From an uncultured Gammaproteobacteria bacterium (GTDB taxonomy: Bacteria > Pseudomonadota > Gammaproteobacteria > HK1), in the NCBI GenBank assembly GCA_947258715.1, contig CAMYJH010000002.1:33654-97653 (forward strand): 64,000 nucleotides of DNA. Direction: 5' to 3'. A program made the position numbers and the translations under genes. Numbering within the stretch: the first letter of the stretch is position 1; every line of letters begins with the position of its first letter. Under the pieces are notes generated by a model. It searched no databases. It worked only from the letters and a program-made list of their open reading frames with translations, and was not told the DNA's origin. Below, piece by piece: positions 11,763 through 29,600 of this stretch.

Positions 11763-13145
11763 ATGATGGGACGTCAAGATGACCACCAAGTTCAGTTTCT
11801 CTACGATTTCAATCTCGACGACCTCGTTCCCAAAGACCACTTGCTACGCCACATTGACCAGTTTGTTGACTTCGATGAGTTGCACGAGCATCTGAAGCCG
11901 TTTTACAGCCATACCGGTCGGCCATCGATTGACCCAGAGCTGATGCTGCGGATGCTGGTCATTGGATACTGTTACGGTATTCGCTCGGAACGACGCCTGT
12001 GCGAAGAGGTGCAACTGAATCTCGCGTATCGCTGGTTTTGCCGTTTGAGCATTGAAGATAAGGTCCCAGATCACTCGACGTTGTCGAAGACCCGCCACGG
12101 TCGGTTCCGCGATAGTGAGGCGTTGCGGTTCGTGTTCGAGCAGGTTGTCGAGCGCTGTATTAACGAAGGTCTGGTCGGTGGAGAAGGGTTCGCGATTGAT
12201 GCCAGTGTGGTGAAAGCGGATGCGAGTCGGCAACGGGCGCGCGAGCGTGGCGATGATGATGATTGGCCGAAGCCCGGCGGCACGACTCGGGCGGTGCGGG
12301 AGTATCTGGAGGCCTTGGATGATACGGTCAAGGCCGCGCGGCGCCTCTCGATGACCGACCCGGCCGCTCAGTGGACAGCCGCGCCTGGTGGGCCGGCGTT
12401 CTTTGCGTATTCGACCAACTACCTCGTGGATACGGACGCCGGGATTATTGTCGATGTCGAGGCAACGACGGCGAATCGTAAGGCTGAGGTGGAATCGACC
12501 AAGGTCATGGTCGAGCGGGTCGAAAAGCGCTTCGAGATGAAGCCGAAACGGCTGATTGGAGACACCGCATACGGCACGGCCGAGATTCTGGGATGGATGG
12601 TCGATGAGAAGGCCATCGAGCCGCATGTGCCGCTGTGGGAGAAGGGTGAACGGCATGACGGTACATTCAGCCGCTCGGACTTTGTCTTCGACCCGGCATC
12701 GAACACCTACACCTGTCCGGGTGGCAAGCGGCTCAAGCAGTACCGGCGCAACTTCACGAACGCACGTACGGGAATCACGAAAGCCAACACGATGATCTAT
12801 CGCGCCAGCCAGCTCGACTGCGCGGCATGTGCGCTGAAGGCGCGATGTTGTCCCAACATGCTGTTTCGCAAGATAGCCAGAAGCGTGCATGAGCCGGCCC
12901 GCGATGTGGCCCGACGTCTCAGGGACACTGCTGAGTATCGACAATCGAGGCGCGCGCGCAAGAAGGTCGAGATGCTGTTCGGTCATCTGAAACGCATTCT
13001 GAAGCTGGATCGGCTACGGCTTCGCGGCATGACGGGAGCAAGCGATGAGTTCTTGCTCGCCGCGACCGCACAGAATCTACGAAGACTGGCGCTCTGGCTC
13101 AGTACCGGACCACCGGAAAATAGGGTCATTGCCTCTGTTGCATGA
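11763..13145 (+). CDS. IS1182-family transposase
   Basis: This 460-residue DDE transposase looks intact. The N-terminal DUF772-type domain is clear (HTGRPSIDPELMLRMLVIG, YGIRSERRLCEEVQLN). Catalytic acids are visible in FAIDASVVKADAS (D), LIGDTAYGTAE (D) and RKKVEMLFGHLKRILKLDRLR (E). IS1182 enzymes move a single-gene element by cut-and-paste. Terminal inverted repeats could not be identified with confidence in the flanks; the region 13146-13320 is probably the element's 3' non-coding part. It differs from the IS10-like element at 32.8 kb, and its flanks do not resemble the palindromic repeat family. Confidence 0.9.
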   Translation: MMGRQDDHQVQFLYDFNLDDLVPKDHLLRHIDQFVDFDELHEHLKPFYSHTGRPSIDPELMLRMLVIGYCYGIRSERRLCEEVQLNLAYRWFCRLSIEDKVPDHSTLSKTRHGRFRDSEALRFVFEQVVERCINEGLVGGEGFAIDASVVKADASRQRARERGDDDDWPKPGGTTRAVREYLEALDDTVKAARRLSMTDPAAQWTAAPGGPAFFAYSTNYLVDTDAGIIVDVEATTANRKAEVESTKVMVERVEKRFEMKPKRLIGDTAYGTAEILGWMVDEKAIEPHVPLWEKGERHDGTFSRSDFVFDPASNTYTCPGGKRLKQYRRNFTNARTGITKANTMIYRASQLDCAACALKARCCPNMLFRKIARSVHEPARDVARRLRDTAEYRQSRRARKKVEMLFGHLKRILKLDRLRLRGMTGASDEFLLAATAQNLRRLALWLSTGPPENRVIASVA

Positions 13146-13349
13146 GAAAACCGGAAAAGGCGACGAGAAAACGAACGAACCAGATGCAAACCCAAGCCGA
13201 AAGGCGGAAATCGGACCGCCCTTCAAATCGACGCCACGGCAACAACCCCTCGCAAACCGCGTTTTTCAACAAAATAGACCCGACGCAGTCATCCGTGTGC
13301 AGCTTCGGTTCGTGACGCAGTTCGACTACGCCGGCGCCAGAAAGCGCGA

Positions 13350-13376
13350 GGCATACCCGCAAGACCGGGGTATGCC
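13350..13376. terminator. Hairpin downstream of the LVIVD gene
   Basis: A perfect 9-bp stem (GGCATACCC / GGGTATGCC) with a 9-nt loop lies 22 nt beyond the stop of the minus-strand gene at 13399. No T-run follows, so intrinsic termination is uncertain. Confidence 0.4.
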
Positions 13377-13398
13377 ACCCGTCGCGTGTAGAAAGGGC

Positions 13399-14796
13399 TT
13401 AAGGCTTTCCTTTCCCGGAGATCGTGAACTCCAGCGTCTGTGGATTGAGGCCGTCCAACCGAATCGCACCAGCACGAGCCTTGTCGCTCAACCCGAACAC
13501 TTCGAGGCCCTTCGTGATGTCGCTGTCGTAGATGAAGTTGTTGTACCAGTAGGTCGACCACGATCCGCCGATCTGACAGAAGCCACCGCAGAAAGGACCA
13601 GGGCCCAGCGACTCCGGATCAACCCAGCCGATGGTCGTAGCATCAGCCGGATCTGTGAAGTCCACGACCCACACGCCACCCTGGTAATTACCCATGACGA
13701 CTACGTCGTTGCCGTTGCGCAGCGGGATTACGTTGTAGTTGTGGATAGTGCAGTTCTCGTCCGCCCCCTGAGCCCGGTCGAGCACCCACGTCCCTAGCTT
13801 CTCACCGGTAGTCGCATCATAGAAGAACAGGGACTTGTCTAGGTCCGGGTCGGTGATTTCGCACTCGCCGGCCCCGCCACCACCAGGCTCCCAACCGGCA
13901 ACGATGATCTCGCCGTCATAGGAGAACCCAGCCGAATGCCACCGTCCGTTCGATGCGGAATCGCCCACGCCCGGTTCGGTGATCGTTAACTTCAAACTCG
14001 GGTCTCTCGGATTGGTGATATCCCAAACGTTGATGGTATCGGCGCTGGCACAGACGGCCTTGTTGACATCACCGAGGATGACGCCGGCGTCATGACATCC
14101 AGTGCGAACAGCCGGGTCGTTCGGCCCCTCCAATGGTTCGCGATGGATGAGCGAGACGCCGGCTGGATTGTCCAGTGGTACAGCGATGACTTCCATGAAG
14201 TCGCCGAGGAGATCCTGCCCAGCCCGATCCAGACCGACGCCGCATCCGCCGCTGCTGGAGTTGTTGCTGTAGATGATCAGGTCACCGCCATCGACTCCAG
14301 CCATGGTCGCGGTGTGCGACCCGCAGGGCAATTCCAACGTCCCGACGAGCACCGGATCGGCCGGGTCGCTGATGTCCCAGACATGGACGCCTTCGAACCC
14401 GGCCGGAACGATCTGACCGCCGCAGGCTCGGTCCTCGCTTCGCTTCGTGTTCCACGTTCGGACAAGGATATTCTCCCAAACGACGAGGTCGCCCTGGTCG
14501 CCGTTACATTCCGTCTCGGCGACGAGCTTCGGATTACCGGGTGCCGAGATGTCGATCACTCGGAAGCCGTTGTAATTGCCCTGATAGGCATACTTGCCCT
14601 GGAACGCAATGTCGCTACTGATCTCCCGCTGGCCGTCGGGCACGCTGAACGTCGCCTCCTTCAAGTCATGGCCCATTTCATGGGTGTTCTGCGTGTGCGG
14701 ATCCGCATCCTGGGGTGAGGGCGGATTCGACCAGGCTGCATTGTGAAATCCGGAAAGCAATAGCGTTACAAAAAGTGCGGATGCGACGTGGCGCAT
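13399..14796 (-). CDS. Secreted LVIVD-repeat (beta-propeller-like) protein
   Basis: This 465-residue protein starts with a signal peptide (MRHVASALFVTLLLSGFHNAAWS). Repeats of the type Y(x)GNY...VIDIS.P.NP, VHVWDISDPADPVLVGTLELP, INVWDITNPRDP and VWVVDFTDPADATTIGW are LVIVD blades. Several cysteines and a GCHDAG motif suggest a disulfide-linked extracytoplasmic fold. The role is unknown; such proteins are usually periplasmic or surface scaffolds. GGGAGGA precedes the ATG at 14796. It lies just downstream of the IS1182-type transposase, in convergent orientation. Confidence 0.8.
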   Translation of the reverse strand: MRHVASALFVTLLLSGFHNAAWSNPPSPQDADPHTQNTHEMGHDLKEATFSVPDGQREISSDIAFQGKYAYQGNYNGFRVIDISAPGNPKLVAETECNGDQGDLVVWENILVRTWNTKRSEDRACGGQIVPAGFEGVHVWDISDPADPVLVGTLELPCGSHTATMAGVDGGDLIIYSNNSSSGGCGVGLDRAGQDLLGDFMEVIAVPLDNPAGVSLIHREPLEGPNDPAVRTGCHDAGVILGDVNKAVCASADTINVWDITNPRDPSLKLTITEPGVGDSASNGRWHSAGFSYDGEIIVAGWEPGGGGAGECEITDPDLDKSLFFYDATTGEKLGTWVLDRAQGADENCTIHNYNVIPLRNGNDVVVMGNYQGGVWVVDFTDPADATTIGWVDPESLGPGPFCGGFCQIGGSWSTYWYNNFIYDSDITKGLEVFGLSDKARAGAIRLDGLNPQTLEFTISGKGKP

Positions 14797-14951
14797 TTTG
14801 TTGTCCTCCCTATCTTGGTGCGTATTACTCCTCCGCGCTAGAAGGTATCACAATAACCGAGTCGATGTGAATTCGCTTCTCGACGTTCTCCCCGAGATTC
14901 CGTTCGTTTCGATATCCGATGCCGAGAACTGCACACAGACCGCTCCTCCGG

Positions 14952-15587
14952 TCACAGTGGGTCCGAGTAGGTGGCTATCCTGACATCTCCTTCTGGCCGG
15001 GAAGCGACCATCGCCAATGGTCGCCTCCCAGCAGTTGGGCTCCAGATTTCCGTCTGCTCTGCCGTTTCACGCGTGTCGTCGACCTCGATTCCGAGATACC
15101 GGACTGTACTCTCTAGTTTGGTGTGTTCCAACAGCCGCTGCATTGCCCGCAGATTTTTCGTCCTGCGGTAGACTAACGTGGCTTTTGTACGCAGCAGCGA
15201 GTGCGTCCCATAATCAGCGGGCTCGAGGCCGATTAAGGTGACCCACGCCTTCACGATTCTCGCGTACTGTCGCGTCGACAGATGTGGCGAGCCAGTCATG
15301 CGGCTCGGAAACAGGTACCCGCCCAGGCTCAAGCGTGCTCGTGCGATCCACGCTTCCAGTGCGTCGCGAGTCTGCTCAGGGAGCTCGAACCGGATCGGCT
15401 TCTTGGTTTTGCGTTGCACTACGGTTGCGCGGGCGACGACGCGTCCACCGTGGGCGATGTCGCACACGCGGAGCCGGACGAGATCGCAACCTCTCACTTT
15501 GCTGTCGATCGCCAGATTGAACAGCGCTAAATCCCGAGTGCGCTTGGCCAGCTGGAGACGGACGCGAATCGCCCAGATTTCCTTCAA
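14952..15587 (-). CDS. Tyrosine recombinase (phage integrase family), probably defective
   Basis: This 211-residue protein matches short tyrosine recombinases. The first catalytic Arg lies in DSKVRGCDLVRLRV, the H box in GTHSLLRTKATL, and the nucleophile Tyr in TVRYLGIEVDD. The family's HxxR (for example HTMR or HSLR) is HSLL here, because the codon is CTG where CGG is expected, so a catalytic Arg appears lost. The start given is a TTG. Family-like sequence (WNKRRLVGPKPPLK) continues upstream to about 15630, but that frame has no ATG, GTG or TTG before a stop. Both facts suggest a decaying gene. No attachment site was recognised. Confidence 0.75.
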   Translation of the reverse strand: MKEIWAIRVRLQLAKRTRDLALFNLAIDSKVRGCDLVRLRVCDIAHGGRVVARATVVQRKTKKPIRFELPEQTRDALEAWIARARLSLGGYLFPSRMTGSPHLSTRQYARIVKAWVTLIGLEPADYGTHSLLRTKATLVYRRTKNLRAMQRLLEHTKLESTVRYLGIEVDDTRETAEQTEIWSPTAGRRPLAMVASRPEGDVRIATYSDPL

Positions 15588-15844
15588 TTTAAGCGGGGGT
15601 TTCGGGCCAACGAGCCTCCGCTTGTTCCATGGTACCGTGTTACGTTGAATGTCAATCGAATTTCATATGTCTGACTCCTTACGTTGTTGGAAAAAGCCAG
15701 ACTGGAGAATTTTGGGGGGGCGGCAAAAACCGACCCTTAGCAGACGTGTAACCTGGATCTGACCGGCGCCCCGCTCAGGGGGTGACCAGATGAGCGGAGT
15801 GTTAGCTGTTAGTGCGGACCGCGGGAAAGCAAAAGCTGTTCATT
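15588..15844. other. Gap with remnant 5' end of the recombinase
   Basis: Minus-strand sequence from about 15630 down to 15588 still encodes recombinase-like residues without a start codon. The rest (15660-15844) holds a G-run and no supported gene. Confidence 0.4.
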
Positions 15845-16597
15845 TCATTTCTCGAACAAAATGGCGCATCCTCTTCCCGCCTGCTTGGCGCGATACATGG
15901 CTGCATCAGCCTCGCCGAGTGCAGTTTTCGAATCCAACTCGTCGAATCCGAGAAGGCGTATTCCTATACTGGCTTCAACATGTAACGTTCGGCCATCGGA
16001 AACAATGGGACTGTCGAGCAGCTTGATCAGTTTTTCGGCTGTTCGCACCGCGTCTTCGGCCGCCAATCGTTTGTCGGAATCGATGCGGTTAAGAATCAAA
16101 ACGAATTCATCACCACCCAAGCGGCTCGCAACGTCCTCCGTTCGGGTCACAGATCGTATTCGTTTGGCGGTCTCAACAAGTACTGCATCGCCGATGTCGT
16201 GCCCGTAGATGTCGTTTATCCGCTTGAACCCGTCTAGATCTATTACCAGCACTGCTGCCGGAATTTTGTGCTTTACGCTTCCGGCTATAACCTTTTGAAG
16301 ATGTTCGAATAAGACACGCCTATTCGCCAGCTGCGTCAACGGGTCGGTAGATGCCAACTCATTCAGTTCAGCAAGCGCCGCGTCCCTGGCTTCAACAAAG
16401 GGCTTAATCACCCACAGGTAAAGCGGGGGTGTGGTCATCGCGGCCAACAGCGCGACATCGATGGCAGCTAAGGAATAACTGCTCGCTTGAGTGGGAATGG
16501 CCTGCAAAACGAGCATAATGAAACCTTCCGCCAACGCAACGATTACGGCGACCCTGAGGAGAACCTTTCTGGTCGTCAGAAGCTCCATGGGTTTCAT
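15845..16597 (-). CDS. Membrane diguanylate cyclase (GGDEF)
   Basis: This 250-residue protein has two N-terminal membrane helices (about residues 12-33 and 43-64) with a short periplasmic loop, then a GGDEF domain. The active-site GGDEF is at 161-165, and a product-inhibition I-site RTED at 152-155 is spaced exactly five residues before it. Other signatures are DPLTQLANRR, DLDGFKRINDIYGHDIGD and the C-terminal ADAAMYRAKQAGR. All elements for making c-di-GMP are present. There is no sensory domain beyond the membrane part. ATG at 16597; a second in-frame ATG follows three codons later. Confidence 0.9.
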   Translation of the reverse strand: MKPMELLTTRKVLLRVAVIVALAEGFIMLVLQAIPTQASSYSLAAIDVALLAAMTTPPLYLWVIKPFVEARDAALAELNELASTDPLTQLANRRVLFEHLQKVIAGSVKHKIPAAVLVIDLDGFKRINDIYGHDIGDAVLVETAKRIRSVTRTEDVASRLGGDEFVLILNRIDSDKRLAAEDAVRTAEKLIKLLDSPIVSDGRTLHVEASIGIRLLGFDELDSKTALGEADAAMYRAKQAGRGCAILFEK

Positions 16598-16981
16598 TGG
16601 GCGCTAGCGTAAAGTGACCTTCCTGATTCTCGGCTAATTAAATCACCCCGCCATTGCGGTTGTCATCTCCGCTGGCAATCCCGCGATTATCGCTCTGTGT
16701 GATGAATCATAGACCAGGAGAAGCTGTTACGTACGCCACAATATCGGAATAGGCTGCTATGTATTGAGAAGGCGATCGGAGAGAAGCCGATCGAACGTGC
16801 TCTTCTGACCTAAAAGCGGACATTTTCCACGCCGCAATCGCTGACACACCGGTCTCTAGCCGCACGACAGTGTCTCTCTGCGCGCATGATCCACGTCAAG
16901 AGGCGAGGCGAAACGGCTGGACCGTTCGAGGGGTTTGGCGCACTCTGTATCGGATGACGGCTGCAGCTCTATGGAGCCACC
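16598..16981. other. Divergent intergenic region before the four-gene operon
   Basis: This 384-bp segment lies between divergent genes (GGDEF on minus, VTT protein on plus) and must hold both promoters. A long open frame crossing it (16870-17700) is out of phase with real coding sequence and was rejected. No repeat family member is present. Confidence 0.4.
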
Positions 16982-17713
16982 GTGACCAGAGAGCTATCCA
17001 TTGGATGGGGTATCGCGATCAGTGTCCTGTTCGTCGCCGTCATTCTCGCGTTGCTGGTTTATTTCGACGCGCAGGAGCAGGTGTTGCGGCTGCTGGAGTG
17101 GCTCGATGCACAAGGTGCGTGGGCGCCCCTCCTGTTCGCGCTCACAATGGCGCTGGTGGTCGTGCTCCTGCTGCCGGGAGTTATGTTCACCACCGGCGCA
17201 GGGTTCGTGTTCGGAGTGGTCGAGGGCACGATATGCGTGGTTCTTGGCACGACCATGGGCGCGGTGCTCGCTTTTTTGATCTCGCGTCATCTATTCGGCG
17301 CCAGGGCCGAGCGCTGGGTGCTGGCGCATTCGAAGCTGAAGTTCGTCACCGAGGAACTCGTGCCCCAGGGATGGAAGATCGTGATGCTCACCCGTCTCGT
17401 ACCCTTCTTTCCGTTCAAGCTCTCCAACTATTTTTTCGGGCTCACGCCATTGTCGCTACGCGCATTTACCGCTGGCACGTCTGTCGGAATCGTCCCCTTA
17501 TCGCTGCACAATGTGTATCTCGGCTCAATCGCCGCCGACATCGCTACGCTGGGGGCGCAACAGGCGGAGCGAACCCAACTCGGATGGGCTCTCTATGCTG
17601 CCGGTTTCGTCTCGATCATCGTGTTGGTGATATACCTCAATCGTCTCGCGCGCCGAGCGCTCGCAAAACACACGCAAGCGCGCGACCAGGGAGATGGCCG
17701 ATGCCGTGGATGA
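16982..17713 (+). CDS. TVP38/TMEM64 (VTT, DedA-like) membrane protein
   Basis: This 243-residue polytopic membrane protein of the SNARE-associated/VTT superfamily shows the family core: LPGVMFTTGAGFVFG, then TTMGAVLAFLISRHLFG, and RLVPFFPFKLSNYFFGLTPLSLRAFTAGTSVG. VTT proteins include lipid scramblases and flippases; transport of a lipid intermediate is a reasonable inference here. It starts at a GTG (16982). It is first of a four-gene operon, and its stop overlaps the next gene (ATG at 17701 or 17710). Confidence 0.85.
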   Translation: MTRELSIGWGIAISVLFVAVILALLVYFDAQEQVLRLLEWLDAQGAWAPLLFALTMALVVVLLLPGVMFTTGAGFVFGVVEGTICVVLGTTMGAVLAFLISRHLFGARAERWVLAHSKLKFVTEELVPQGWKIVMLTRLVPFFPFKLSNYFFGLTPLSLRAFTAGTSVGIVPLSLHNVYLGSIAADIATLGAQQAERTQLGWALYAAGFVSIIVLVIYLNRLARRALAKHTQARDQGDGRCRG

Positions 17714-19965
17714 AGTGGTTGCCCTGGCGGTTCGTCGTTCGTCACGTGGCGCGCGCCCACGGTTTCATCGATCCCATCGCGCTGCTGGCTCGCCTGCATC
17801 GTTTTACCCAACCCTCCGAGGTGGGCGAGCCCGTCGAGCTGCTGCGCGCCGGCGTGGTCTTCCACGCGCGCGGACTCATCAACAGCCGGGTAATTCAGCA
17901 CAACCTGGATTGGATCTGGCCTTACTGGATCGAGCGCCAGTTCGATCCACGATCGGACGCGTTCATCCCGCGGGCGTTTTCAATCACGCACGTCAATTTC
18001 ACCCATCGCAACTGGACGGCCATCGGCTGGCCGGACGACTCAGAGCTGCCCATCGTGGATCCTCGAGGATTGCTCACTCCGTTCTTCGACGGCTGGTCGC
18101 TGGACGCCTGGGTGGTGGCGGAAGACGGGCGCCGATTGTTTCCGTCTCGAGTCCCGTCAGCCACCCAGCGCCTCGAGACCGAAGGCGTCCCGGCGGTGAT
18201 CACCGAGACGGCGCACGACGGCTTGTTCCTGCGAAACCGGGCCACGGTACAACTCGAATCGGGTCGGCCGGTGTGTCGCCTGGAGCTTCAGGCGCGCAGC
18301 GACGCCTGCGCAAGCATGGTCGTCGCGCTGTGCCCCTTTAACCCCGAAGGGATCAGCTTCATCCACACCGTGGCCCTTTCCCCAGAGCGAAACGCGTGGA
18401 CCATCGATGGTCTGCGGAGCGTCGAGTTCAGCGCGCCGGCCGAGCACCACCACACGTCGGATTACCGCACCGGCGCCGTATCTCTGCGCTTGCACGACCG
18501 GAAAGACCAGATTCGTGGCGAGTGTGACGTCGGCATGGCGACGGCGGCGGCGCACTTTGACCTCGACACGCAGCGGCTACGCGAGATCGTTGTCCGTATT
18601 CCGCTCGCGGATGCCAGACGCACACGCCAGCGCTCGAGCGCGTCCTGGGAGAACGCCCTGGCGGGCCACTGCAAACTGGCGCTGCCGAACGTACAGCTGC
18701 AGTCGCTCTATGAAGCCGCGTTGCGCGCGCTGGTCCTCCACTCCCCGGATGAAGTCTATCCCGGTCCCTATACCTATAAACGTTTCTGGTTTCGCGATGC
18801 CGCCTTCATCATTCACGGCCTGCTGTGCGCCGGCTTGACGGAACGCGCCGAACGCGCGCTCGATCATTTCCCCGGCCGTCAGACCCGTCGCGGCTATTTC
18901 CACTCTCAGGCGGGCGAATGGGATTCCAACGGCGAAGCCCTGTGGATCATGAACCGGTTCTGCGAGCTGAGCGGGCGTTCGCCGAAGCCCGGCTGGCGCC
19001 AAGCCATCATGCGGGGGGCCCGCTGGATTGCACGCAAGCGCCTCGCCGAGAGTATCGATGCACCGCACGCCGGGTTGTTGCCGGCGGGCTTCAGTGCCGA
19101 GCACCTCGGTCCCAACGATTACTACTATTGGGACGACTTCTGGGGCATCGCCGGCCTCGAGGCGGCGGCATCCCTGTGCGCGAAGCTGGGCGATGGCGCT
19201 TCGGTAGCGGAATTCCAGCGTGAGGCAGATGCGTTTCGACGTGCCGTGGATCTCAGTCTGGCTCAGGCGGCGGAGCGGCTGGGCCGACCCGCCATGCCCG
19301 CTACGCCGTATCGACGACTGGACGCCGGCGCCATCGGCTCGCTAGCGGTGGGCTATCCATTGAGGATGTGCGAGCCCGGCGATCCGCGCCTGCTCGACAC
19401 GGTAGCGTTTCTGCTGGAGAACTGCTTCGTCAACGGCGGGTTCTTCCAGGACATGATCCACTCGGGTATCAATCCCTATCTGACCCTGCACGTGGCCCAG
19501 GTGCTGCTGCGAGCCGGCGACAATCATTGTCTCGAGCTCATGGACACCGTGTCGAGCCTCGCCTCGTCCACCGGGCAGTGGCCCGAGGCCATTCATCCGC
19601 GCACCCGGGGCGGCTGCATGGGCGACGGCCAACATATCTGGGCAGCCGCGGAATGGGTGTTGATGGTCCGAAACTGTCTCTTGCGCGAGGAAGGCGACCG
19701 GTTGATCGTGGGATCGGGCATCGCGCCGCATTGGCTCGGGGACGAAGCGGTGATTTCATTCGGCCCCGCGCCGAGCGCCTTCGGGACGGTTTCGCTGAAA
19801 ATTGCGGCGAAAGCCGGTGCCGCAGGCCGCCGGGCGTGCGTGTCCTGGAGCGGTGACTGGTATGCCCGAGCGCCGAGTGTCGAGGTGCGTTTGCCCGGAT
19901 TGAAACCGATCATGACCGCGCCGGGAGATAGCTCCATCGAGTTGTCATTGCCGGAAGTCACATGA
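17701..19965 (+). CDS. Six-hairpin glycosidase-superfamily protein (glucoamylase/debranching-like)
   Basis: This is a protein of about 754 residues. The N-terminal half is beta-rich, resembling the N-terminal domain of amylo-alpha-1,6-glucosidase-type enzymes. The C-terminal half has repeating helices of an (alpha/alpha)6 barrel: RFWFRDAAFIIHGLL at about residue 361, GYFHSQAGEWDSNGEALWIMNRF, YYYWDDFWGIAGLEAAA and STGQWPEAIHP. E/D residues in GEWDSNGEA and GQWPEA are candidate catalytic acids. There is no signal peptide, so it acts in the cytoplasm. The start at 17701 is chosen because AGGGAG lies 7 nt upstream; the ATG at 17710 would give an ATGA overlap. The 3' end overlaps the GT4 gene by 4 nt. 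Confidence 0.75.
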   Translation: MPWMKWLPWRFVVRHVARAHGFIDPIALLARLHRFTQPSEVGEPVELLRAGVVFHARGLINSRVIQHNLDWIWPYWIERQFDPRSDAFIPRAFSITHVNFTHRNWTAIGWPDDSELPIVDPRGLLTPFFDGWSLDAWVVAEDGRRLFPSRVPSATQRLETEGVPAVITETAHDGLFLRNRATVQLESGRPVCRLELQARSDACASMVVALCPFNPEGISFIHTVALSPERNAWTIDGLRSVEFSAPAEHHHTSDYRTGAVSLRLHDRKDQIRGECDVGMATAAAHFDLDTQRLREIVVRIPLADARRTRQRSSASWENALAGHCKLALPNVQLQSLYEAALRALVLHSPDEVYPGPYTYKRFWFRDAAFIIHGLLCAGLTERAERALDHFPGRQTRRGYFHSQAGEWDSNGEALWIMNRFCELSGRSPKPGWRQAIMRGARWIARKRLAESIDAPHAGLLPAGFSAEHLGPNDYYYWDDFWGIAGLEAAASLCAKLGDGASVAEFQREADAFRRAVDLSLAQAAERLGRPAMPATPYRRLDAGAIGSLAVGYPLRMCEPGDPRLLDTVAFLLENCFVNGGFFQDMIHSGINPYLTLHVAQVLLRAGDNHCLELMDTVSSLASSTGQWPEAIHPRTRGGCMGDGQHIWAAAEWVLMVRNCLLREEGDRLIVGSGIAPHWLGDEAVISFGPAPSAFGTVSLKIAAKAGAAGRRACVSWSGDWYARAPSVEVRLPGLKPIMTAPGDSSIELSLPEVT

Positions 19966-21257
19966 ATATCGTGATGCTGAGCAATACCTTCACACCACAC
20001 GTCGGTGGGGTGGCGCGTTCGTTGGAGGCCTTCACTGCGGAGTACCGGCGCCGGGGCCACCGCGTTATGGTCGTGGCGCCGGAGTTTTCCCACACGCCGA
20101 CGGAGGAGACGGATGTTATCCGAATACCGGCGGTGCAGAATTTCAACGGCAGCGACTTCTCCGTCGTGTTACCGATCTCCGGGCTCCTGAGTAGAACCCT
20201 CGACCAGTTTCAGCCCGAAATCGTGCACGCCCACCATCCTTACCTATTGGGTATGACGGCATTGCGGATCGCCCGTTACCGCGAGCTGCCGCTGGTTTTC
20301 ACACATCACACGCTCTACGAGCAATACACGCATTACGTGCCGGGCGATTCGCCGACGCTGAGGCATTTCGTCGTCGAGCTGGCGACCCAATACGCCAACC
20401 TTTGCGACCAGGTATTCGCCCCCAGCGAGAGCATCGCCTCGCTGCTGCACGAGCGCGGCGTGATTGCTCCCGTCGCCGTCGTGCCCACCGGGGTGAGGAT
20501 GGAGCGCTTCGCGCAGGGAGACGGCGCCGGCTTTCGTGCGGCCATGGGCATCCCCGATGATGCCTTCGTCGTCGGACACTTGGGGCGTCTCGCCCCGGAG
20601 AAAAACCTCGTCTTCCTCGCCGAGGCGGTGGCGGCCTTCCTGGAGTCCGACGCCGCTGCTCATTTTCTAGTTGTGGGCAAGGGACCATCGGAAGCCGACA
20701 TCCGTCGGATATTCGAGCGCCGCGGCCTGAGCAGTCGCCTGTGGCTCTCCGGTGTTCTCAAGCACCCGCGGCTCGCGGATGCCTACCATGCCATGGACGC
20801 ATTCGCTTTCGCCTCCAAGACCGAGACCCAGGGCATGGTCCTCACCGAGGCCATGGCTGCGGGTGTGCCGGTGATAGCCCTGGACGCATCCGGGGTTCGC
20901 GAGATCGTGCAAGACGGGTGCAATGGCCGGCTGCTGGGCGAGGAGACCCGCGATGCATTTCGTGACGCGCTGCGGTGGATCGCGCGCATGGAGTCAGCGC
21001 AACGCGGCGCTCTCACTCGGGCGGCACTGGAGACAGCAGATGCATTCTCCCTGCCGCGCACGGCGGACAAGGCGCTCGCGTGCTACGAGGTGCTGAACTC
21101 CAAGACACTGCTCAGCGCCCGAGCCGATGGGCACGAGCGCTGGGAGAATCTCCTCCACCTCATCAAGGCGGAGTGGGACATCGTCAAAAGTGTGACGGCC
21201 GCTGCCGGCTCAGCATTCGAGACGGCGGAAGCGCCAAGGCGGAGTCGGCCAACGTGA
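19962..21257 (+). CDS. GT4-family glycosyltransferase
   Basis: This 431-residue GT-B glycosyltransferase has its N-terminal acceptor domain at MNIVMLSNTFTPHVGGVAR and VHAHHPYLLG. The C-terminal nucleotide-sugar domain has GHLGRLAPEKNL and the EX7E motif in ETQGMVLTEAMAAGVP. It resembles retaining alpha-glycosyltransferases that act on lipids such as diacylglycerol, phosphatidylinositol or polyprenyl acceptors. The ATG overlaps the upstream stop (ATGA) and its stop overlaps the next GTG (GTGA), so translation is coupled along the operon. The acceptor is unknown. Confidence 0.88.
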   Translation: MNIVMLSNTFTPHVGGVARSLEAFTAEYRRRGHRVMVVAPEFSHTPTEETDVIRIPAVQNFNGSDFSVVLPISGLLSRTLDQFQPEIVHAHHPYLLGMTALRIARYRELPLVFTHHTLYEQYTHYVPGDSPTLRHFVVELATQYANLCDQVFAPSESIASLLHERGVIAPVAVVPTGVRMERFAQGDGAGFRAAMGIPDDAFVVGHLGRLAPEKNLVFLAEAVAAFLESDAAAHFLVVGKGPSEADIRRIFERRGLSSRLWLSGVLKHPRLADAYHAMDAFAFASKTETQGMVLTEAMAAGVPVIALDASGVREIVQDGCNGRLLGEETRDAFRDALRWIARMESAQRGALTRAALETADAFSLPRTADKALACYEVLNSKTLLSARADGHERWENLLHLIKAEWDIVKSVTAAAGSAFETAEAPRRSRPT

Positions 21258-23716
21258 TCGGCCGCATCGAGGTATTCGTGCGCCGCGTGCGCCGCTGGTT
21301 CAGTCGCAGCGAATGGCTGGCACGTCTGCTGGTATTGCCGGTGTCCACCGGGACCGAGACGGCCCCGGGCTTGGTGATGATACAGGTCGACGGGCTTTCC
21401 CAGGTTGAGCTTGAGCGAGCACTCGATACGGGCGAAGTGCCGTTCCTGCGCCGGCTAATTGATCGGGAGCAGTACCGGCTGCACCGACATTACGCCGGTC
21501 TGCCCTCGACGACAGCCGCCTTTCAAGGCGAGCTGTTTTATGGCGTCAAAGCAATCGTCCCCGGGTTTAACTTCATGGAACGTGCCACGGGACGCCTGGT
21601 GCGTATGTTCGAGCCGGCGATTGCCGCCCGGGTCGAACGCAAGCTCGAAGACCAGGGCGGGGAGCCATTGCTTCGGGACGGCAGCTTGTTCGTCGGTCAT
21701 TACACCGGGGGTGCGGCCGAGCCGCACTTTTGCTCATCGTCCCAGGGCTGGGGACCGACCTTGCGGGAGGCTCACCCGGCGGCCGTTGCCGTTCTGATTC
21801 TCAGCAATGCGTTCAGTTTTGTTCGAACGGCCGTGCTCCTGGTGGTGGAACTTCTGCTCGCAGTCGCCGACTGCGTGCGCGGAATGATCGAGGGCCAGAA
21901 CATCGTCGAGGAATTGAAGCTGGTGCCGAGCCGCGTGGTCATCGGCATCCTGCTGCGCGAGCTCGCTACCATCGGGGCAAAGATTGACGTGGCTCGCGGT
22001 GTGCCCGTCATACAGATCAACTTTCTCGGCTACGACGAGCAGGCCCATCGGCGGGGACCATCGTCGCTCTTTGCGCACTGGACGCTGCGAGGTATCGACG
22101 ACGCCATCGCGCGTGTTTGGCGTTCGGCACATCGTTCGGATCGCCGTCACTACGACGTCTGGATCTACTCTGACCACGGACAAATCGAGACGCAACCCTA
22201 CGACAAGATCCAAGGCCGCAGCTTCGCTCGGACCGTGGCCGACGTGTTGACCCATTTCGAAGGCCGTGCCATCGAAGTCCGATCCAGCGGGTCGAGGGGT
22301 GTTCAGCTGCAACGAGTGCGGCTCCTGGGTGGTAAAAGAATTCAGCGCTTGTTGTCGGCGGGCGAATTCGATCATGACGAATCGGATGATTCACGGCTCG
22401 CCGTGGCACCGCTGGGGCCGCTGGCGATGGTTTACTACGACCGAGCGCTCGACAGGACCGAACGCGCGGCTTTCGCCCGGTTACTTCAGGATCGAGCAGG
22501 GATTCCTTTGGTGCTGACAAAGGAGGGCACCGATGGCGCCCGTGCGTGGACCGAGGCGTGCGAGTACGTGCTACCGAAAGACGGCGCCCGGTTGCTGGGT
22601 GCCGACCACCCTTTCCTCGAGGAAGTCACACTCGATTTGATCGCGCTGTGTCACCACCCCGACGCCGGCGAGTTCATCGCCTGCGGTTGGCGCGCAGCCA
22701 CCTCTGCGATGAGCTTCGCCATCGAGAACGGTGCCCACGGCGGCCCGGCACCCGAAGAGACCAACGCCTTCGCGTTGCTGCCGGCGGACGTGCGCTTACC
22801 ATCCAACGATCGCGACTACATCCGGCCCTCCGATCTGCGCCATGCCGCGTTTCATTTTCTCGAGCGCTCCGAGACAAAGTCGTCCAGAGCGCCGAGGAGA
22901 TATGCGGCGAGCCGCGACACGTTACGCATCATGACGTACAACGTGCACAGTTGTGTCGGCATGGACGGCAAGATCCTGCCGGAGCGAATTGCCCGCATCA
23001 TCGACCGCTATGCTCCGGACATTGCCGCCCTGCAGGAGCTCGATGTAGGGCGGGAACGCACGGAGGGTATGGACCAGGCTCACATCATCGCGCGACATCT
23101 GGAGATGGATTTCTACTTCCACCCGGCCATGCACGTGGAGGAAGAACGCTACGGCGACGCGATCCTCACCCACCTGCCCATGCGTCTGGTCAATGCCGGG
23201 GCGCTACCAACCCTGCCGGGCAAGCCGTATCTGGAGCCTCGCGGCGCGCTATGGGTAGCGGTTGATGTATACGGTAGGGAATTTCAGGTGATAAACACCC
23301 ACCTGGGGTTAATGCCCGGAGAACGCAAAGTGCAAATAGAGGCGTTGCTCGGCCCGGAGTGGCTCGCGCATCCGGACTGCCGGGGGCCGGTCATTCTCTG
23401 TGGGGATCTCAACGCGGGACCCGCCTCGCCGGTGTGCCGCCGCCTGCGCCAGCGCCTCAACGACGCCCAGACCGAGCTGCGTCGGCATCGACCCCGAGGC
23501 ACCTTTTTCCCGCGTTTTCTCTCCGCCAGGATCGACTACGTGTTCGTCGAGCCCGGTCTCGAGGTGACTGATGTCGAGGTCCCCGAGACGCAGCTCGCGC
23601 GCACCGCCTCCGATCACCTGCCCCTGGTGGTCGAAGTTCGGACACCGGCATCCATGAGAGCTGCGCCGCCGACCAAAGCGCCAGAGCAGAGAACAGACGC
23701 TACCATCAGCAGCTGA
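21254..23716 (+). CDS. Alkaline-phosphatase-superfamily / EEP phosphodiesterase fusion
   Basis: This is an 820-residue two-enzyme fusion. Residues about 35-540 form an alkaline phosphatase/nucleotide pyrophosphatase-type domain: metal Asp in MIQVDGLSQ, likely nucleophile Thr in LPSTTAAFQGE, and metal ligands in GYDEQAHRRGP and YSDHGQ. A hydrophobic stretch near residues 179-204 may be a membrane segment or buried helix. Residues about 555-815 form an endonuclease/exonuclease/phosphatase domain: MTYNVHSC, LQELDVGRER, INTHLGL, GDLNAGP and the final SDHLPLVVEV. Both domains keep their metal residues. The start is the GTG at 21254 with a GTGA overlap. The family of the EEP half includes lipid-linked phosphatases; the substrate is unknown. 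Confidence 0.85.
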   Translation: MIGRIEVFVRRVRRWFSRSEWLARLLVLPVSTGTETAPGLVMIQVDGLSQVELERALDTGEVPFLRRLIDREQYRLHRHYAGLPSTTAAFQGELFYGVKAIVPGFNFMERATGRLVRMFEPAIAARVERKLEDQGGEPLLRDGSLFVGHYTGGAAEPHFCSSSQGWGPTLREAHPAAVAVLILSNAFSFVRTAVLLVVELLLAVADCVRGMIEGQNIVEELKLVPSRVVIGILLRELATIGAKIDVARGVPVIQINFLGYDEQAHRRGPSSLFAHWTLRGIDDAIARVWRSAHRSDRRHYDVWIYSDHGQIETQPYDKIQGRSFARTVADVLTHFEGRAIEVRSSGSRGVQLQRVRLLGGKRIQRLLSAGEFDHDESDDSRLAVAPLGPLAMVYYDRALDRTERAAFARLLQDRAGIPLVLTKEGTDGARAWTEACEYVLPKDGARLLGADHPFLEEVTLDLIALCHHPDAGEFIACGWRAATSAMSFAIENGAHGGPAPEETNAFALLPADVRLPSNDRDYIRPSDLRHAAFHFLERSETKSSRAPRRYAASRDTLRIMTYNVHSCVGMDGKILPERIARIIDRYAPDIAALQELDVGRERTEGMDQAHIIARHLEMDFYFHPAMHVEEERYGDAILTHLPMRLVNAGALPTLPGKPYLEPRGALWVAVDVYGREFQVINTHLGLMPGERKVQIEALLGPEWLAHPDCRGPVILCGDLNAGPASPVCRRLRQRLNDAQTELRRHRPRGTFFPRFLSARIDYVFVEPGLEVTDVEVPETQLARTASDHLPLVVEVRTPASMRAAPPTKAPEQRTDATISS

Positions 23717-23734
23717 GAGCTCCGTAAGCCAACT

Positions 23735-23757
23735 TGTCCGGAGTCGGCTCCCGGACA
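23735..23757 (+). terminator. Possible operon-end hairpin
   Basis: TGTCCGGAG pairs with CTCCCGGACA with one bulged base and a TCGG loop, 18 nt after the operon's last stop codon. No T-run follows. Confidence 0.4.
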
Positions 23758-24067
23758 TCATTCAATTGCCGGGTCACTTTCTCAATCAGGTTGGCAACAC
23801 CCCTCACCGCGCCGATTTCGGAGCCGGCCATCGTTGCAACAAAATTCCGATTCTGAGGGCTGCGATCGCCGCTAACCGCATGGGTCCTAAGCGCATCGAT
23901 GGATGCTCGGTTACGCGAAAACAGGCGAATATTGTTCCCCTACCCGACAGCCGCAAGCGCGCCTCAGGAACTGAGGTCGCCAGAAGCTGAGCGCGTTGAC
24001 GGGCGAATTCGGAACGCCCTATCATCCGGGGTAGTTTTTGGAAGTACTCGTGAAGAGGGAATCGGCG

Positions 24068-24508
24068 GTGAGCATTAACAGCATGATACGAAGTGTCGGC
24101 GCAGCCGCAATTGTCATCGCCATCAGTGTTGGCTGCGAGTCGCTTATTGTGCGGGAATCTCCCAAGGATCGCGGCGAGCTGCTCAGCGGCAGCGAGATCC
24201 AGGCGATGTTGGTCGGAAACAGCGTCGTGGGCGATGTCAGAATGACACCGTTTACGGTGTATTTTCCCAGCTACGGCGAAATGCGCGGCCAGCGCTCGTT
24301 TCATTATCGGGATGACGGCACTTGGCGTGTGACCGAGGAAGGCTTTTGCGGCAAGTGGAACAACTGGCTGGGCACCATGGCCCAGTGCTGGCGCGCCTAT
24401 CGCTCCGGCGATGCCGTGACTCTTGAAAAAGGTGACGGCTCCCAGCAGGAGAGGTTCAAACTGGTACCCGGAAATCCGGCGAATTTGCAGAATCGAAACG
24501 GCAATTAG
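24068..24508 (+). CDS. Hypothetical lipoprotein
   Basis: The protein has about 146 residues. Reading from the GTG at 24068, the N-terminus SINSMIRSVGAAAIVIAIS ends in a lipobox-like ISVGC, so membrane anchoring at the cysteine is likely. The GTG is preferred over the ATG at 24038 because AGAGGGA lies just upstream and only this start gives a normal-length signal peptide. The mature part contains TVYFPSYGEMRGQRSF, DGTWRVTEEGFCGKW and MAQCWRAYRSGD, a pattern like small periplasmic proteins with a lipocalin or DUF995-like layout. No function can be assigned. Confidence 0.6.
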   Translation: MSINSMIRSVGAAAIVIAISVGCESLIVRESPKDRGELLSGSEIQAMLVGNSVVGDVRMTPFTVYFPSYGEMRGQRSFHYRDDGTWRVTEEGFCGKWNNWLGTMAQCWRAYRSGDAVTLEKGDGSQQERFKLVPGNPANLQNRNGN

Positions 24509-24654
24509 TTAACGCTCGGGGTCGACATAGAGACCTGCCGGCACTGTGGCGGGGCGGTGCCACAGATACTTCGGGAAAACGGCTGGGCTGAGAGCTCGGC
24601 TTTCTGGCGCCAGCGAAAAAGCTGATGCTGGTCGAAGGTGTTGTTCGATCTCGG

Positions 24655-25188
24655 CTAGACCCCGGGTTGTTTTCCCTTTAAGTGCTCAACATGATCGATC
24701 AGCATGTCAACTGTTTCCTTCAATAGATCGAGTTCCTCGAGCGTCAAATCGTTTAACTGCTCGAGGTTGTATTCTATTGTTTCGATTATCTTTTTATGAG
24801 GGCGCAGCATTGGTCGCATAAAATAACTGGTGACAGTCGCTACGATGGTTCCGAAGAACAAGACTGAACCAAGAACTATCCAGATGCCCCCAACCAGCTG
24901 AGCAGCGCCAGATATCGGCGCATCAGCGATTCCCGCTGTAGAAAATGCGGCTATCCCCCAGTACAACGCCCCTCCATAAGAATTGATAGACGTTCCCTCG
25001 ATGCCCTGCTCGGCGAAATAAACGCCGGCGGAAAACACGAGCCATAACGCTGTCAATAGAAGCACCATTTTGGTGAATGGTGTGTGGATAGAGATATCCT
25101 CAATGAATCTCTTAAACCGAGCATGTGGCCGTGCTTTTCTCATTTTGGTCGGACTCGTCTTTCTGCGATGGACATCTATCGAACTCAA
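24655..25188 (-). CDS. Two-TM ion-channel-like protein with altered selectivity filter
   Basis: This 177-residue protein has helix 1 at about residues 41-60 (MVLLLTALWLVFSAGVYFAEQ), a pore-helix region (SYGGALYWGIAAFSTAGIAD), helix 2 at about 98-122 (IWIVLGSVLFFGTIVATVTSYF) and a charged coiled-coil tail (IIETIEYNLEQLNDLTLEELDLL). This is the layout of bacterial two-TM potassium channels (Ion_trans_2). The filter normally reads TVGYGD; here the matching place reads STAGIAD, so potassium selectivity is doubtful. It could be a non-selective or regulatory subunit. The ATG at 25188 is used; an ATG 15 codons later is also possible. Confidence 0.7.
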   Translation of the reverse strand: MSSIDVHRRKTSPTKMRKARPHARFKRFIEDISIHTPFTKMVLLLTALWLVFSAGVYFAEQGIEGTSINSYGGALYWGIAAFSTAGIADAPISGAAQLVGGIWIVLGSVLFFGTIVATVTSYFMRPMLRPHKKIIETIEYNLEQLNDLTLEELDLLKETVDMLIDHVEHLKGKQPGV

Positions 25189-25513
25189 AGGGTGATTCTA
25201 CACCCGCACTGTCCGCCTTCGAGAAGATTCAAGTCAGTCGTGAATGTCCCAGGGTGGCCGTAAACGCATTGGTCCGCTTCCGATCGCCGCGAGGTCTTCG
25301 GTTACACGGCCGCTTTTATGCCAGGGTTAGGCGCGTTGTGTATTACCCGCGGACCGCATGCTAACGACGGCCCTCACCATCAGGCCGGGGATCGGCACAT
25401 CCTAGGCAAAAACCTCGCAGGTGTGGATCAGGCCCAGCTCGACCGGCAAGAGTTCGATGTTCGACACGCCATGGAGGAAGCGAAGGGGACGTTCTTCTTG
25501 GGCAGGATCAAAT
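25189..25513. other. 325-bp gap, no supported gene
   Basis: The open frames here lack motifs or start signals. A short word TGAATGTCCC near 25240 recalls the palindromic element end, but no arm or partner is present. Confidence 0.35.
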
Positions 25514-26446
25514 CTATCCGCAGCTCGAAGAGACTTCGTAGCCTACACGTGGAAAATGCACGACCACGTCACCAACTCGATCGTGACTACGACGAACGGC
25601 AATCTCCTCCGCGCTTACGCTGACGATCTCTCCCGTCACGGGCGGATCACCGCCCATCCCTGATGGCACCACCGCCACCTGTAGACCCGGGGCCAAACCC
25701 TCAGGGTCACCGGGGTCCGCGCGCGTTCTGGTTTCTGAGGTCGCGGCTTTGGCGATGGCCAGCGCCTGTTCGGCGGTCATGTCGCTCGCCTGTCCGTGAC
25801 CAAGTTCCGCGACACGTTTTTCCCATGCCACCAGATTGGGAAACTGACTCAGAAACTCAGAACCGCCGGCATAGCGCCCGCGGATAAACCAAACGAGGTA
25901 GTAACAGAGCGCATCGGGAAGACCGGGTTCGCTGCCGAGAATAAAGGTGCGGCCAGTAGCGAGACGCGCCTCTATCCACCCGAGCTGCGCGCGGAGTTGC
26001 GCCAATATCCGCGGCAGTTGCCGCTTCATGGCCTGCAGGTCGTAATCAGGGCCGAAATAAAGTCGGCCTCTGTCATCGGCGAAGTCTTTAGGCAGTTCAT
26101 CTGCCTGCGCACCGAAGACTAACGAAACCGCCAGCGTAAACAATGGTCCGTCGGTCCAGCGACTCACTCCCCATACCATGCCGGCACCGCCACCCGGATA
26201 CAGCGTCGGCTCAGGGAACCGCCGCTCGATCTCGCGAATAATACACTGGCTGTCGCAATAGACATCCGCGCCGATCTGCATCACCGGCGTGCGACGATAG
26301 CCGCCGGTCAGCGGCATCAGATCGGGCTTGGGCAACAGACGCGGGATCTCGACCGAACGCCAATTCAGTTGTTTGATCCCCAACACCACGCGCACCTTTT
26401 CCGACACGGGCGACTGCGGATAGTGATGTAGGATGATGGACGGCAT
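25514..26446 (-). CDS. Glutathione S-transferase-like protein with C-terminal extension
   Basis: The protein has about 310 residues. The N-terminal thioredoxin-fold domain is clear (IILHHYPQSPVSEKVRVVLG, RRTPVMQIGADVYCDSQCIIREIER). The helical C-terminal domain contains LRAQLGWIEARLATGRTFILG and PGLPDALCYYLVWF. About 70 extra residues follow the usual end, containing LQVAVVPSGMG and TGEIVSVSAEEIAVRR, which look like a small beta domain. Glutathione conjugation or reduction is possible but unproven. The ATG at 26446 is chosen because it starts right before the conserved first strand; an upstream ATG at 26479 adds eleven residues. Confidence 0.78.
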   Translation of the reverse strand: MPSIILHHYPQSPVSEKVRVVLGIKQLNWRSVEIPRLLPKPDLMPLTGGYRRTPVMQIGADVYCDSQCIIREIERRFPEPTLYPGGGAGMVWGVSRWTDGPLFTLAVSLVFGAQADELPKDFADDRGRLYFGPDYDLQAMKRQLPRILAQLRAQLGWIEARLATGRTFILGSEPGLPDALCYYLVWFIRGRYAGGSEFLSQFPNLVAWEKRVAELGHGQASDMTAEQALAIAKAATSETRTRADPGDPEGLAPGLQVAVVPSGMGGDPPVTGEIVSVSAEEIAVRRSHDRVGDVVVHFPRVGYEVSSSCG

Positions 26447-26662: not shown

Positions 26663-29600
26663 TTATATCGGCGGCCTATGCGCCGACCTCCCCTCCGCCA
26701 GCGCCTTCTCGATGGCGGGGAGCGCCAGGGCAAGGCCGTGCTCCTTGGCCGCCCCGGCCAGGCGGTTGAGCTCGGCAGTCAACGCATTGTTTCGCTCGCC
26801 CTTGCCAAAGGCGATAAGCGCCCGCCCGCGGGCCACGATAAAGTCTGTCAGCGCCAGCGGTTCAGGATCGACGTAGTCTTCGAGTAGACGGGCATAGCGC
26901 TCGGCTTCGTCCCAATCTCTCGATTCGAGGCAGGCTTCAATGGCGTCCTCGTAGAACTCGAGGAAGTTATGGCCGACGGCGCCGCTTTCGAGCATCGACT
27001 CGCCTTCCGAGAGAGCCGCATGTCGTCGCTTCGATTCGTCGGTGGCCCGCGCCAATGTTCCCAGGATGGCGGCCCCGCAGTAGCCCGGGCCGGTGTTCCG
27101 ACTGACCTTCAGGCCCTCTTCCAGGACCTCGCAGGCCTTGCGCCGTTCCCCCTCGGCCAGATTTATCCTTCCCAGATAGCAAAGATACCGCGCTATTGTG
27201 CGCTTTGCGCCCAATCGCTCCGCAAGCCGCTTTGCCTGTTCGGCATACGTTCTTGCCTCGCTGAGCTTGCCAAGAAATATCGCGGCGTTGGTGGCGGAAA
27301 TGTAGCTCTGTAGCTCGCTTCGAAGCGAACCGACCTCGGCCGAGGTTTCGGCTGTCTCGAGGCACAGTGCCAGAGACCTGCGCAGATCCAATGAGTATTG
27401 CAACGTGCCGCCACCGATCATCTGGTTGTGTGCAACTTCAACCCGCCCGAGGCCGTTACGTCTGGCAGCCTCGACACATTGCGCCAGGTAATCATGGGCG
27501 GAACGCATCCGGCCGCCGGCGTAATAGGCGTCACCAAGACCGCCCAGCGCGTGCACCTCGAGCTCGATTGATTTGGCTTTGCGCGCGTAGTCCAACGCGC
27601 GCTGGTTAAAAGGCAAACAGTTTCCGGTTTGCCCCTTCCAGAACGCGAGATTAGCGCGCGTGATATAAATTTTCGCGAGGTCTTCCCACAACTCGTGTGC
27701 CTCGGCGATGGGCTCTGCCTCGTCCAGTATGCCAACCGCCTCATCGTGCTTATCGAGCACACGCAGACCCATGGCGATACCCACCAGGGCGCGGCACCGA
27801 TCAGTTTCCTCCGTCGTCGACCCAAGGGCGGATTGATAGGCCCGCAACGACTCTTCAATCGGACCCACGTGGTGCAGGAATTCGCCTCGCAGGCAGTACA
27901 GGTGAAACCGATCGGTATCCACCGCAATCTCGAGCCCACGCTCGACGAGTTGCAGGGCGCGTTCAACCCGGTACGCGCGGAACTCGGCGCGAGCCGCATC
28001 CGCATAAGCCACAGGCGCAGAGGCGTGCCCCGCGGCTTCCAGGTGATTGGCGCGCAAGACGAGATCGGTTTGCGCGAACCAGTCGGCCGCCCGCATGTGG
28101 AGGGCCTGGCGCGAATCCGAAAGCAAGGAAGCGTGGATGCCGTCTCGAATGAGGGCATGCGCAAACAGGTAATAGCCCCTATGGGGGCGCACCAAGTCGT
28201 GGGCCACCAGCTCCGTACATTCGTAGTGCGGGTCTTGCACGAGATAACGAAGCGCTTCGATATCAAATCGCTGACCGAGGACGGAGGCTGCACGGACAGC
28301 GCTTCGATCCTTCGAATCGAGCCGGTCGCACCTTGAAAGAGTGAGCTCCTGTACGCTGGATGGAATCGCTTCGCCGGTCTCGTCCTCCTCGCCAACCCGA
28401 AGCAGTTGCTCGAGAAACAGAGGGTTCCCCTGGGCCCGTTCGACGCAACGTTTACGGAAGTCGTCGGATCCGGTGCAGATATCTTCCGCCAGGGATACAG
28501 CGTCCGCGTCGCGAAGCGGACGCAAGTCAATAGTCAACAGGGGCACCTCGCGGGTTGCCGTTCGCCATTTAGAGTCTAGCGGGTCGCCTTCGATGCGAGA
28601 CGTCATCAAAACAACGAGCCTTTGAGCACCCAGCGAGTTCGATAAGTCGGCGAGCTGTTCGACCACAAAGGGATCCGCCCAGTGCAGATCCTCGATCATG
28701 AGAAGGACGGGAACCCGCGCGCAGCGGCTGGAGATCAGATCGGTCAGCACTTCAGTCTTGCCCTGGTTGCGGATCCGCTCATCCATGGCGTCGAAACGGG
28801 ACCGAAGCTCCAGAGGCTGCGGAAGGTCGAGGAGGTCATTGAGAAAAACTCTCATCTCGACGCGCGTGCGACCTTCTTTGACCGCTTGCTCAGCCGCTTC
28901 CTGCCGACGCTCTTCTTCCGCACCCGACGAAAGCTGCAGCAGGCCGCGGGCGAGGGCGCGCGGAACCTCCTCACCCTTGCGAGTGCCGAAGTCCAGCACC
29001 AGCACCCGGTAACAGGCAAAGCCTCTCTGCTCCGCGAGCTTGCCGGTCTCTTCCAGCAGGCGGGTCTTCCCGATGCCGGGCTCGCCGCGCACGAATACGA
29101 TATGAGCGTGCCCCGCATCCCGGCAGGAACCGAGGACGCTCTGCATTTGCTCCAGTTCAAACTGACGACCGACGAAGCGCGTCGGGTGCAGCCAGCGCGG
29201 CGTTTCGCGAAGCATGCTTACGCGGTAGACAGGCAACGCCCGGCCGCGGGACCGCACATTGATCTCTGGCGCGGCCTGGAAGTCAAAGAAGCGCTCCGCG
29301 TCGGCCACCACCGCTTGGGTGGCAAGCACCTCTCCCGGCCACGACAGCACTTCCAACTGCCGCGCGACGTCCACGCTGTCGCCGGTTATGTTATAGCTGC
29401 CTTGCCCGGCATCGCCTGCGCTCACCACGACCTGTCCGCTCGCCACGCCCACCTGCGCGGCGACCGGTTGCGCGGCTTCTTCACCGAGCGACGGCGTCAG
29501 CGCGCGAATCTCCACGGCGGCGCGCAGCGCGCGCTCGGCGTCGTTGCCGTGGGCCACCGGGGTTCCATATATCGCCACGACGGTATCGCCGATACGGTTC

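Follow-up and report, generated by a model that had tools for sequence, protein, structure and literature searches.

Within a 64,000-nucleotide (nt) stretch of a contig from an uncultured Gammaproteobacteria bacterium (CAMYJH010000002.1, positions 33,654 to 97,653; the window, hereafter) we examined four overlapping genes that encode, in order, a VTT/DedA-type membrane protein (VTT), a glycosidase-like protein with a predicted six-hairpin fold (SH6), a glycosyltransferase of the retaining type (GT4), and a protein we designated PEEP, in which a phosphodiesterase domain is fused to an endonuclease/exonuclease/phosphatase (EEP) domain (Table 1). An earlier note, made from the sequence alone, had described the genes as joined by a 13-nt overlap (or an ATGA) and two 4-nt overlaps (ATGA and GTGA), and direct reading of the open reading frames (ORFs) and junctions bore this out. 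Since overlaps recur in homologous loci (VTT/SH6, 40 of 49 pairs; SH6/GT4, 40 of 54; GT4/PEEP, 17 of 38), we do not attribute them to chance. Although SH6 has a second possible start at ATG 17710 (ATGA), which would give a 4-nt overlap with VTT, we favored 17701 because a ribosome-site-like GGGAG sits just upstream of it and homolog alignments open with MPWMKWLPWRF-like residues; alignments for starts 17701, 19962, and 21254 begin at the identical residue. The over-long G+C-rich ORFs that open at 16870 and 20975 extend the SH6 and PEEP frames upstream, and we rejected them as likely starts. No RNA families were found in window positions 13000-26000, and scans for terminators and promoters gave weak matches, with nothing decisive.

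Table 1. Positions of the operon genes, junctions, and PEEP domains (window numbering) and of the Marinobacter GT4 fusion (locus numbering); aa, amino acids.
Feature	Position	Strand	Remarks
VTT/DedA-type membrane protein gene	16982..17713	+	243 aa; GTG start 16982, TGA stop 17711-17713
SH6 (predicted six-hairpin fold) glycosidase-like protein gene	17701..19965	+	754 aa; ATG start 17701
GT4 retaining-type glycosyltransferase gene	19962..21257	+	431 aa; ATG start 19962 within ATGA
PEEP phosphodiesterase-EEP fusion gene	21254..23716	+	820 aa; GTG start 21254 within GTGA
VTT/SH6 overlap, 13 nt	17701..17713	+	from sequence; includes ATGA 17710-17713; -13 or -4 overlaps recur among relatives
SH6/GT4 overlap ATGA, 4 nt	19962..19965	+	from sequence; -4 in 36/54 relatives
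GT4/PEEP overlap GTGA, 4 nt	21254..21257	+	from sequence; -4 in 17/38 relatives
PEEP phosphodiesterase domain, alkaline phosphatase superfamily	21254..22873	+	about aa 1-540
PEEP EEP domain	22916..23653	+	about aa 555-800
Marinobacter-type GT4 fusion	L156:1693-3912 and L157:16704-18947		N-terminal phosphoesterase-like region and MGlcDAG-synthase-like GT4

The same gene set was found in other genomes. Among 299 phylum genomes searched, full-length PEEP occurred in two further ones (G173 and G318), which represent two other families of the class Gammaproteobacteria and carry VTT-SH6-GT4-PEEP in order with 46–58% identity; the VTT gene of G318 is frameshifted (L037:3842-4620), with the remaining three genes intact. 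Scanning the genomes of ~85,000 species with an SH6 alignment recovered at least 464 relatives, and among the best 80 loci all four genes occurred in order in 34 (in one of these, L090, VTT lies ~9.4 kb distant), while 24 loci, nearly all from Marinobacter, had VTT-SH6 only, and others miss one gene or end at contig edges. The locus titles name Gammaproteobacteria, Desulfobacterota-type bacteria, Nitrospinota, Rhodospirillales, and one Riflebacteria metagenome-assembled genome (MAG); many of the loci come from MAGs, and single taxon labels are uncertain. The co-occurrence search suggested in the earlier note therefore found the proposed order in G173, G318, and 34 of the 80 best loci, and the order is neither unique to this genome nor dissolved into scattered homologs, as it recurs in unrelated bacteria. 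Clustering of all neighboring ORFs revealed no fifth gene kept across genera in the operon flanks, and a plasmid search with SH6 returned only distant proteins, mostly discoidin-domain proteins with 22–27% identity.

Pairwise distances of the four proteins correlated with one another (r 0.78–0.90), with none of 2000 permutations as high. A search with the PEEP phosphodiesterase domain provided a linkage test that did not depend on having picked SH6 first; strong matches were present in three of 399 phylum genomes (the window's own, G173, and G318), each beside SH6. Likewise, in 247 genomes of the phylum of locus L060 there were four close matches, all in SH6-positive genomes (three adjoining SH6 on the same contig and one at a contig edge), and two distant homologs (~27% identity) in genomes without SH6. 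The phosphodiesterase domain is thus nearly confined to SH6-carrying genomes, and SH6 is the more widespread of the two. The gene set is real and more general than could be told from the sequence alone, and as the four genes are conserved and inherited together as a unit, a shared pathway, as had been claimed for them, is very likely.

The domain identities previously given for VTT and GT4 were both confirmed by Pfam. VTT matched VTT_dom at 80.9 bits (cutoff 33.9), and an alignment of 25 family members showed invariant W40, F52, P65, F143-P144, G153, P172, and G181. While VTT has its domain in common with the UptA/DedA undecaprenyl-phosphate flippases, it scored 18.7 bits against the UptA transporter model, far under the cutoff of 250. 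GT4 matched Glyco_transf_4 and Glycos_transf_1, and its best NCBIfam was alpha-monoglucosyldiacylglycerol (MGlcDAG) synthase (NF049988, 128.1 bits; cutoff 400), of which it is a relative, not a member. This family and GlcNAc-phosphatidylglycerol synthase were the top two curated families, each matching all 32 GT4 members, far under cutoff. In the Marinobacter genomes tested, GT4 and PEEP were missing beside SH6 and the phosphodiesterase had no match; the closest GT4 homolog, ~12 kb from VTT-SH6 in L156, scored 205 bits as MGlcDAG synthase. This homolog carries a fused N-terminal phosphoesterase-like region (calcineurin-like in the L157 copy, E-value 6e-4) and in L156 adjoins an LPG_synthase_TM gene. 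The fusion may stand in for the operon GT4.

SH6 appears cytosolic by sequence. The window protein had no Pfam match, none of 44 SH6 members reached the cutoff of a relevant family (one matched the GH15 Pfam at an E-value of 0.076), and an hhalign profile comparison to GH94 was not significant. Although no Pfam family was matched, the predicted fold agrees with the six-hairpin glycosidase fold that had been claimed: a Foldseek search with the AlphaFold (AF2) model (mean pLDDT 80.6; residues 28-80 poorly modeled) identified GH94 cellobiose/chitobiose phosphorylases, a GH15 bacterial glucoamylase, and the GH65 2-O-alpha-glucosylglycerol phosphorylase (E-values 1e-15 to 1e-11, or 6e-15 to 1e-12 in the comparison with GH15 and GH94 enzymes; TM ~0.5), from which we predict a beta-sandwich and an (alpha/alpha)6 barrel of the GH15/GH65/GH94 type. 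SH6 would therefore share its fold with glucoamylase and dextran dextrinase (GH15), with GH65, and with the disaccharide phosphorylases of GH94, whereas structural-alignment identity to these families is ~10%; weak sequence motifs (W-x-R-D, W-D/E) are common to SH6 and GH15. The best sequence match in the PDB was dextran dextrinase (E-value 0.0084), which we take to be a GH15 enzyme with the glutamate of its W-E motif as the general acid, and W477-D478 of SH6 aligned to that motif. The invariant carboxylates of SH6 include E406, D408, D478, and E629, and D478 and E629 were invariant also in discoidin-type relatives with 23–26% identity; D478 is likely the acid and E629 likely the base. Such a carboxylate pair suits an inverting hydrolase, and SH6 may instead be a phosphorylase. 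Separately, two large proteins (~930–1,080 aa; L005:70-3237 and L131:1-2823) are distant kin of SH6 and share its YWD.FW and W.E motifs, and the only annotation of plasmid homologs is as discoidin-domain proteins.

Consistent with the double phosphoesterase described earlier, PEEP scored over cutoff to both Phosphodiest (34.2 bits, cutoff 23) and Exo_endo_phos (82.4 bits, cutoff 24.5) within one protein, with catalytic residues intact. The metal-ligand and nucleophile candidates of the phosphodiesterase domain (D46, T87, D261, H265, D307, H308, and H495) were invariant in 33 sequences, as were N563, E595, H683, D718, N720, D787, and H788 of the EEP domain. D46, D261/H265, and D307/H308 align with the Xanthomonas-type nucleotide pyrophosphatase/phosphodiesterase (2gso, 7mw8), T87 being the nucleophile candidate, but the similarity is ~20 bits and PEEP differs in having a hydrophobic insertion (aa 172-247) and the EEP fusion. 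Two hydrophobic segments (aa 172-214 and 223-247) are conserved, and PEEP lacks an evident signal sequence. Among the matches listed in a fold search with PEEP there were only EEP structures, and the phosphodiesterase assignment rests on sequence. As a separate observation, a gene for a TrkA-type ion channel immediately adjoins distant homologs of this domain in L171:1628-4727 and L172:1949-4685 (a Pfam call in L171; the L172 gene reads alike at its N terminus).

The EEP domain is a module that can be detached. In L116 and L124 PEEP is split, with the phosphodiesterase 3' of GT4 and a separate EEP gene 5' of VTT, and in L173:4568-13256 an SH6-GT4-phosphodiesterase operon is divergent from a fusion of phospholipase D (PLD) to VTT and an EEP gene, which brings two gene modules together at a single site. 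Free-standing EEP relatives in other genomes adjoin PLD-family proteins; the EEP gene of L043 is overlapped by one for a PLD-VTT fusion. The gene ybhP encodes a protein of the EEP family. In Salmonella, ybhP lies within the operon of the cardiolipin synthase gene clsB (PMC9241728), and together with the L173 and L043 sets this indicates that VTT and EEP repeatedly accompany enzymes of phospholipids. As in the window operon, EEP is tied to membrane lipid genes in ybhP-clsB-ybhN (PMC9241728) and in the PLD-VTT and EEP sets of L042, L043, and L173, the latter three having VTT as well. These sets contain a PLD or cardiolipin synthase gene, whereas the window operon has glycosyl enzymes instead; no PLD-family gene was present among the operon genes or the immediate neighbors tested.

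The conserved operon, its co-inheritance, the domains, the conserved catalytic residues, and the predicted fold form the established part of a model in which, tentatively, the operon is a conserved inner-membrane module for exchange of glycerolipid head groups at the cytosolic face; all substrates, the directions in which the steps run, and what VTT does are inferred. In this model PEEP, associated with the membrane, would use its phosphodiesterase and EEP domains to cleave phosphate-bearing head groups from a phospholipid or phosphoglycolipid, and GT4 would place an alpha-linked sugar, probably glucose from UDP-glucose, on the resulting acceptor of the diacylglycerol type. SH6, acting as a GH15-like inverting alpha-glycosidase (D478 acid, E629 base), would take off or trim the sugar, making the exchange reversible, and VTT would equilibrate the lipid between leaflets. 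The families closest to GT4, the hydrophobic segment of PEEP, the PLD and VTT company of EEP, and the MGlcDAG-synthase-like fusion of Marinobacter are all in keeping with a lipid or glycolipid substrate, and as a class the pathway is plausible. A literature search of openly licensed PMC papers found no description of the VTT-SH6-GT4-PEEP gene set and no named pathway for it. The fuller proposition is more doubtful: that the operon specifies an undescribed pathway, widely spread in bacteria, in which phosphate head groups of membrane glycerolipids are reversibly replaced by an alpha-linked sugar, and that SH6 is a new glycoside hydrolase-like family whose targets are lipid head groups on the cytosolic side.

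Several observations weigh against head-group exchange. With TM-scores of ~0.5, the fold matches do not fix the SH6 reaction, the PEEP phosphodiesterase could act as a transferase, and GT4 is far under the MGlcDAG synthase cutoff, with Stp3 and MshA close behind. The correlated protein distances partly reflect species phylogeny, and L167, L169, and L170 have SH6-GT4 only and L168 has SH6 alone, so the full gene set is not always needed. In addition, there was no clear Pho-box enrichment over shuffles upstream of VTT in 51 loci, so control by phosphate starvation is not indicated.

The earlier note had read the set as serving a phosphorylated glycolipid or a polyprenyl-linked glycan; a lipid or glycolipid substrate fits, but the polyprenyl version is weaker given the poor UptA score. 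In that version, GT4 would build on an undecaprenyl-phosphate-linked sugar, PEEP would cleave undecaprenyl phospho- or diphospho-sugars, SH6 would trim the glycan, and VTT would recycle undecaprenyl phosphate. We consider this unlikely, although some VTT/DedA proteins are undecaprenyl phosphate flippases (PMC12893004, PMC11474028), 16 of the 25 VTT members weakly matched UptA (best E-value 7e-8), and enzymes of exopolysaccharide and O-antigen were also among the GT4 matches, as the window VTT is so far below the UptA cutoff, the flanks contain no conserved polymerase, flippase, initiating transferase, or sugar-nucleotide gene, and the top two GT4 families are glycerolipid enzymes. Unlikelier still is synthesis of a phosphoglycolipid, with the phosphodiesterase domain a phosphotransferase that decorates the GT4 glycolipid with a phospho-alcohol, in the manner of lipoteichoic acid synthase or the ethanolamine-phosphate transferases of glycosylphosphatidylinositol (GPI), and EEP removing it. 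The alkaline phosphatase superfamily, to which the PEEP domain belongs, holds both phosphodiesterases and phosphotransferases, and EEP matches the C-terminal domain of PGAP2IP (GPI remodeling); the match of the window protein is weak, and those of its L124 and L173 relatives exceed the cutoff. However, known phosphotransferases of these types act outside the cytosol, whereas PEEP has no evident signal sequence and EEP and the overlapping GT4 and SH6 look cytosolic by sequence; moreover, the comparison of PEEP with solved structures is dominated by EEP.

Metabolism of a soluble alpha-glucoside or oligosaccharide-phosphate (an osmolyte or storage compound), to which VTT and the membrane segment would be incidental, could account for sugar phosphorylases and glucoamylase among the SH6 fold neighbors and for the resemblance of GT4 to MshA and BshA, which use soluble acceptors. 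We find it improbable, as VTT stays beside SH6 even in loci without GT4 and PEEP (Marinobacter), the PEEP hydrophobic segment is conserved, and EEP relatives adjoin PLD-family proteins. A stress or defense island acting on DNA or RNA, with EEP as a nuclease, can hardly be credited: it is favored by Tdp2 and nocturnin among the best EEP fold matches and by the transposase and integrase-family gene upstream of the operon, but none of the four operon proteins had a PADLOC match, EEP is partnered by a glycosyltransferase, a protein resembling glycosidases, and a membrane protein, and the unit is co-inherited over long distances.

The exchange of head groups that we propose has a parallel in plcP-agt lipid renovation, which pairs a phospholipase C with a GT4-family diacylglycerol glycosyltransferase (PMC8231724, PMC8528852). 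In both cases a phosphoester-cleaving enzyme is encoded next to a GT4 enzyme, and the closest families of the window GT4 act on glycerolipids. In place of the calcineurin-type PlcP, the window operon has the fusion of Phosphodiest and Exo_endo_phos, and it adds a glycosidase-like protein and a VTT protein to the plcP-agt-like logic. Lacking PlcP and Pho-box enrichment, it is not a plcP-agt member. The Marinobacter GT4-phosphoesterase fusion is a possible one-protein counterpart of plcP-agt. If our model is true, Gram-negative bacteria of several phyla would have a second route, independent of PlcP, by which phospholipids and glycolipids are exchanged, and SH6 would represent a glycosidase-like family that lacks any Pfam model. 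The repeated association of VTT and EEP with lipid genes gives a setting in which ideas on these two large and little-understood protein families can be tested.

Upstream of the operon, the transposase and integrase-family gene occupy window positions 11763-13145 and 14952-15587. Downstream, on the minus strand, a short ORF without a Pfam match (24655-25188) reads like an ion-channel pore protein, and positions 26663-30613 encode a large regulator that combines BTAD, cyclase-like, AAA, and TPR regions.

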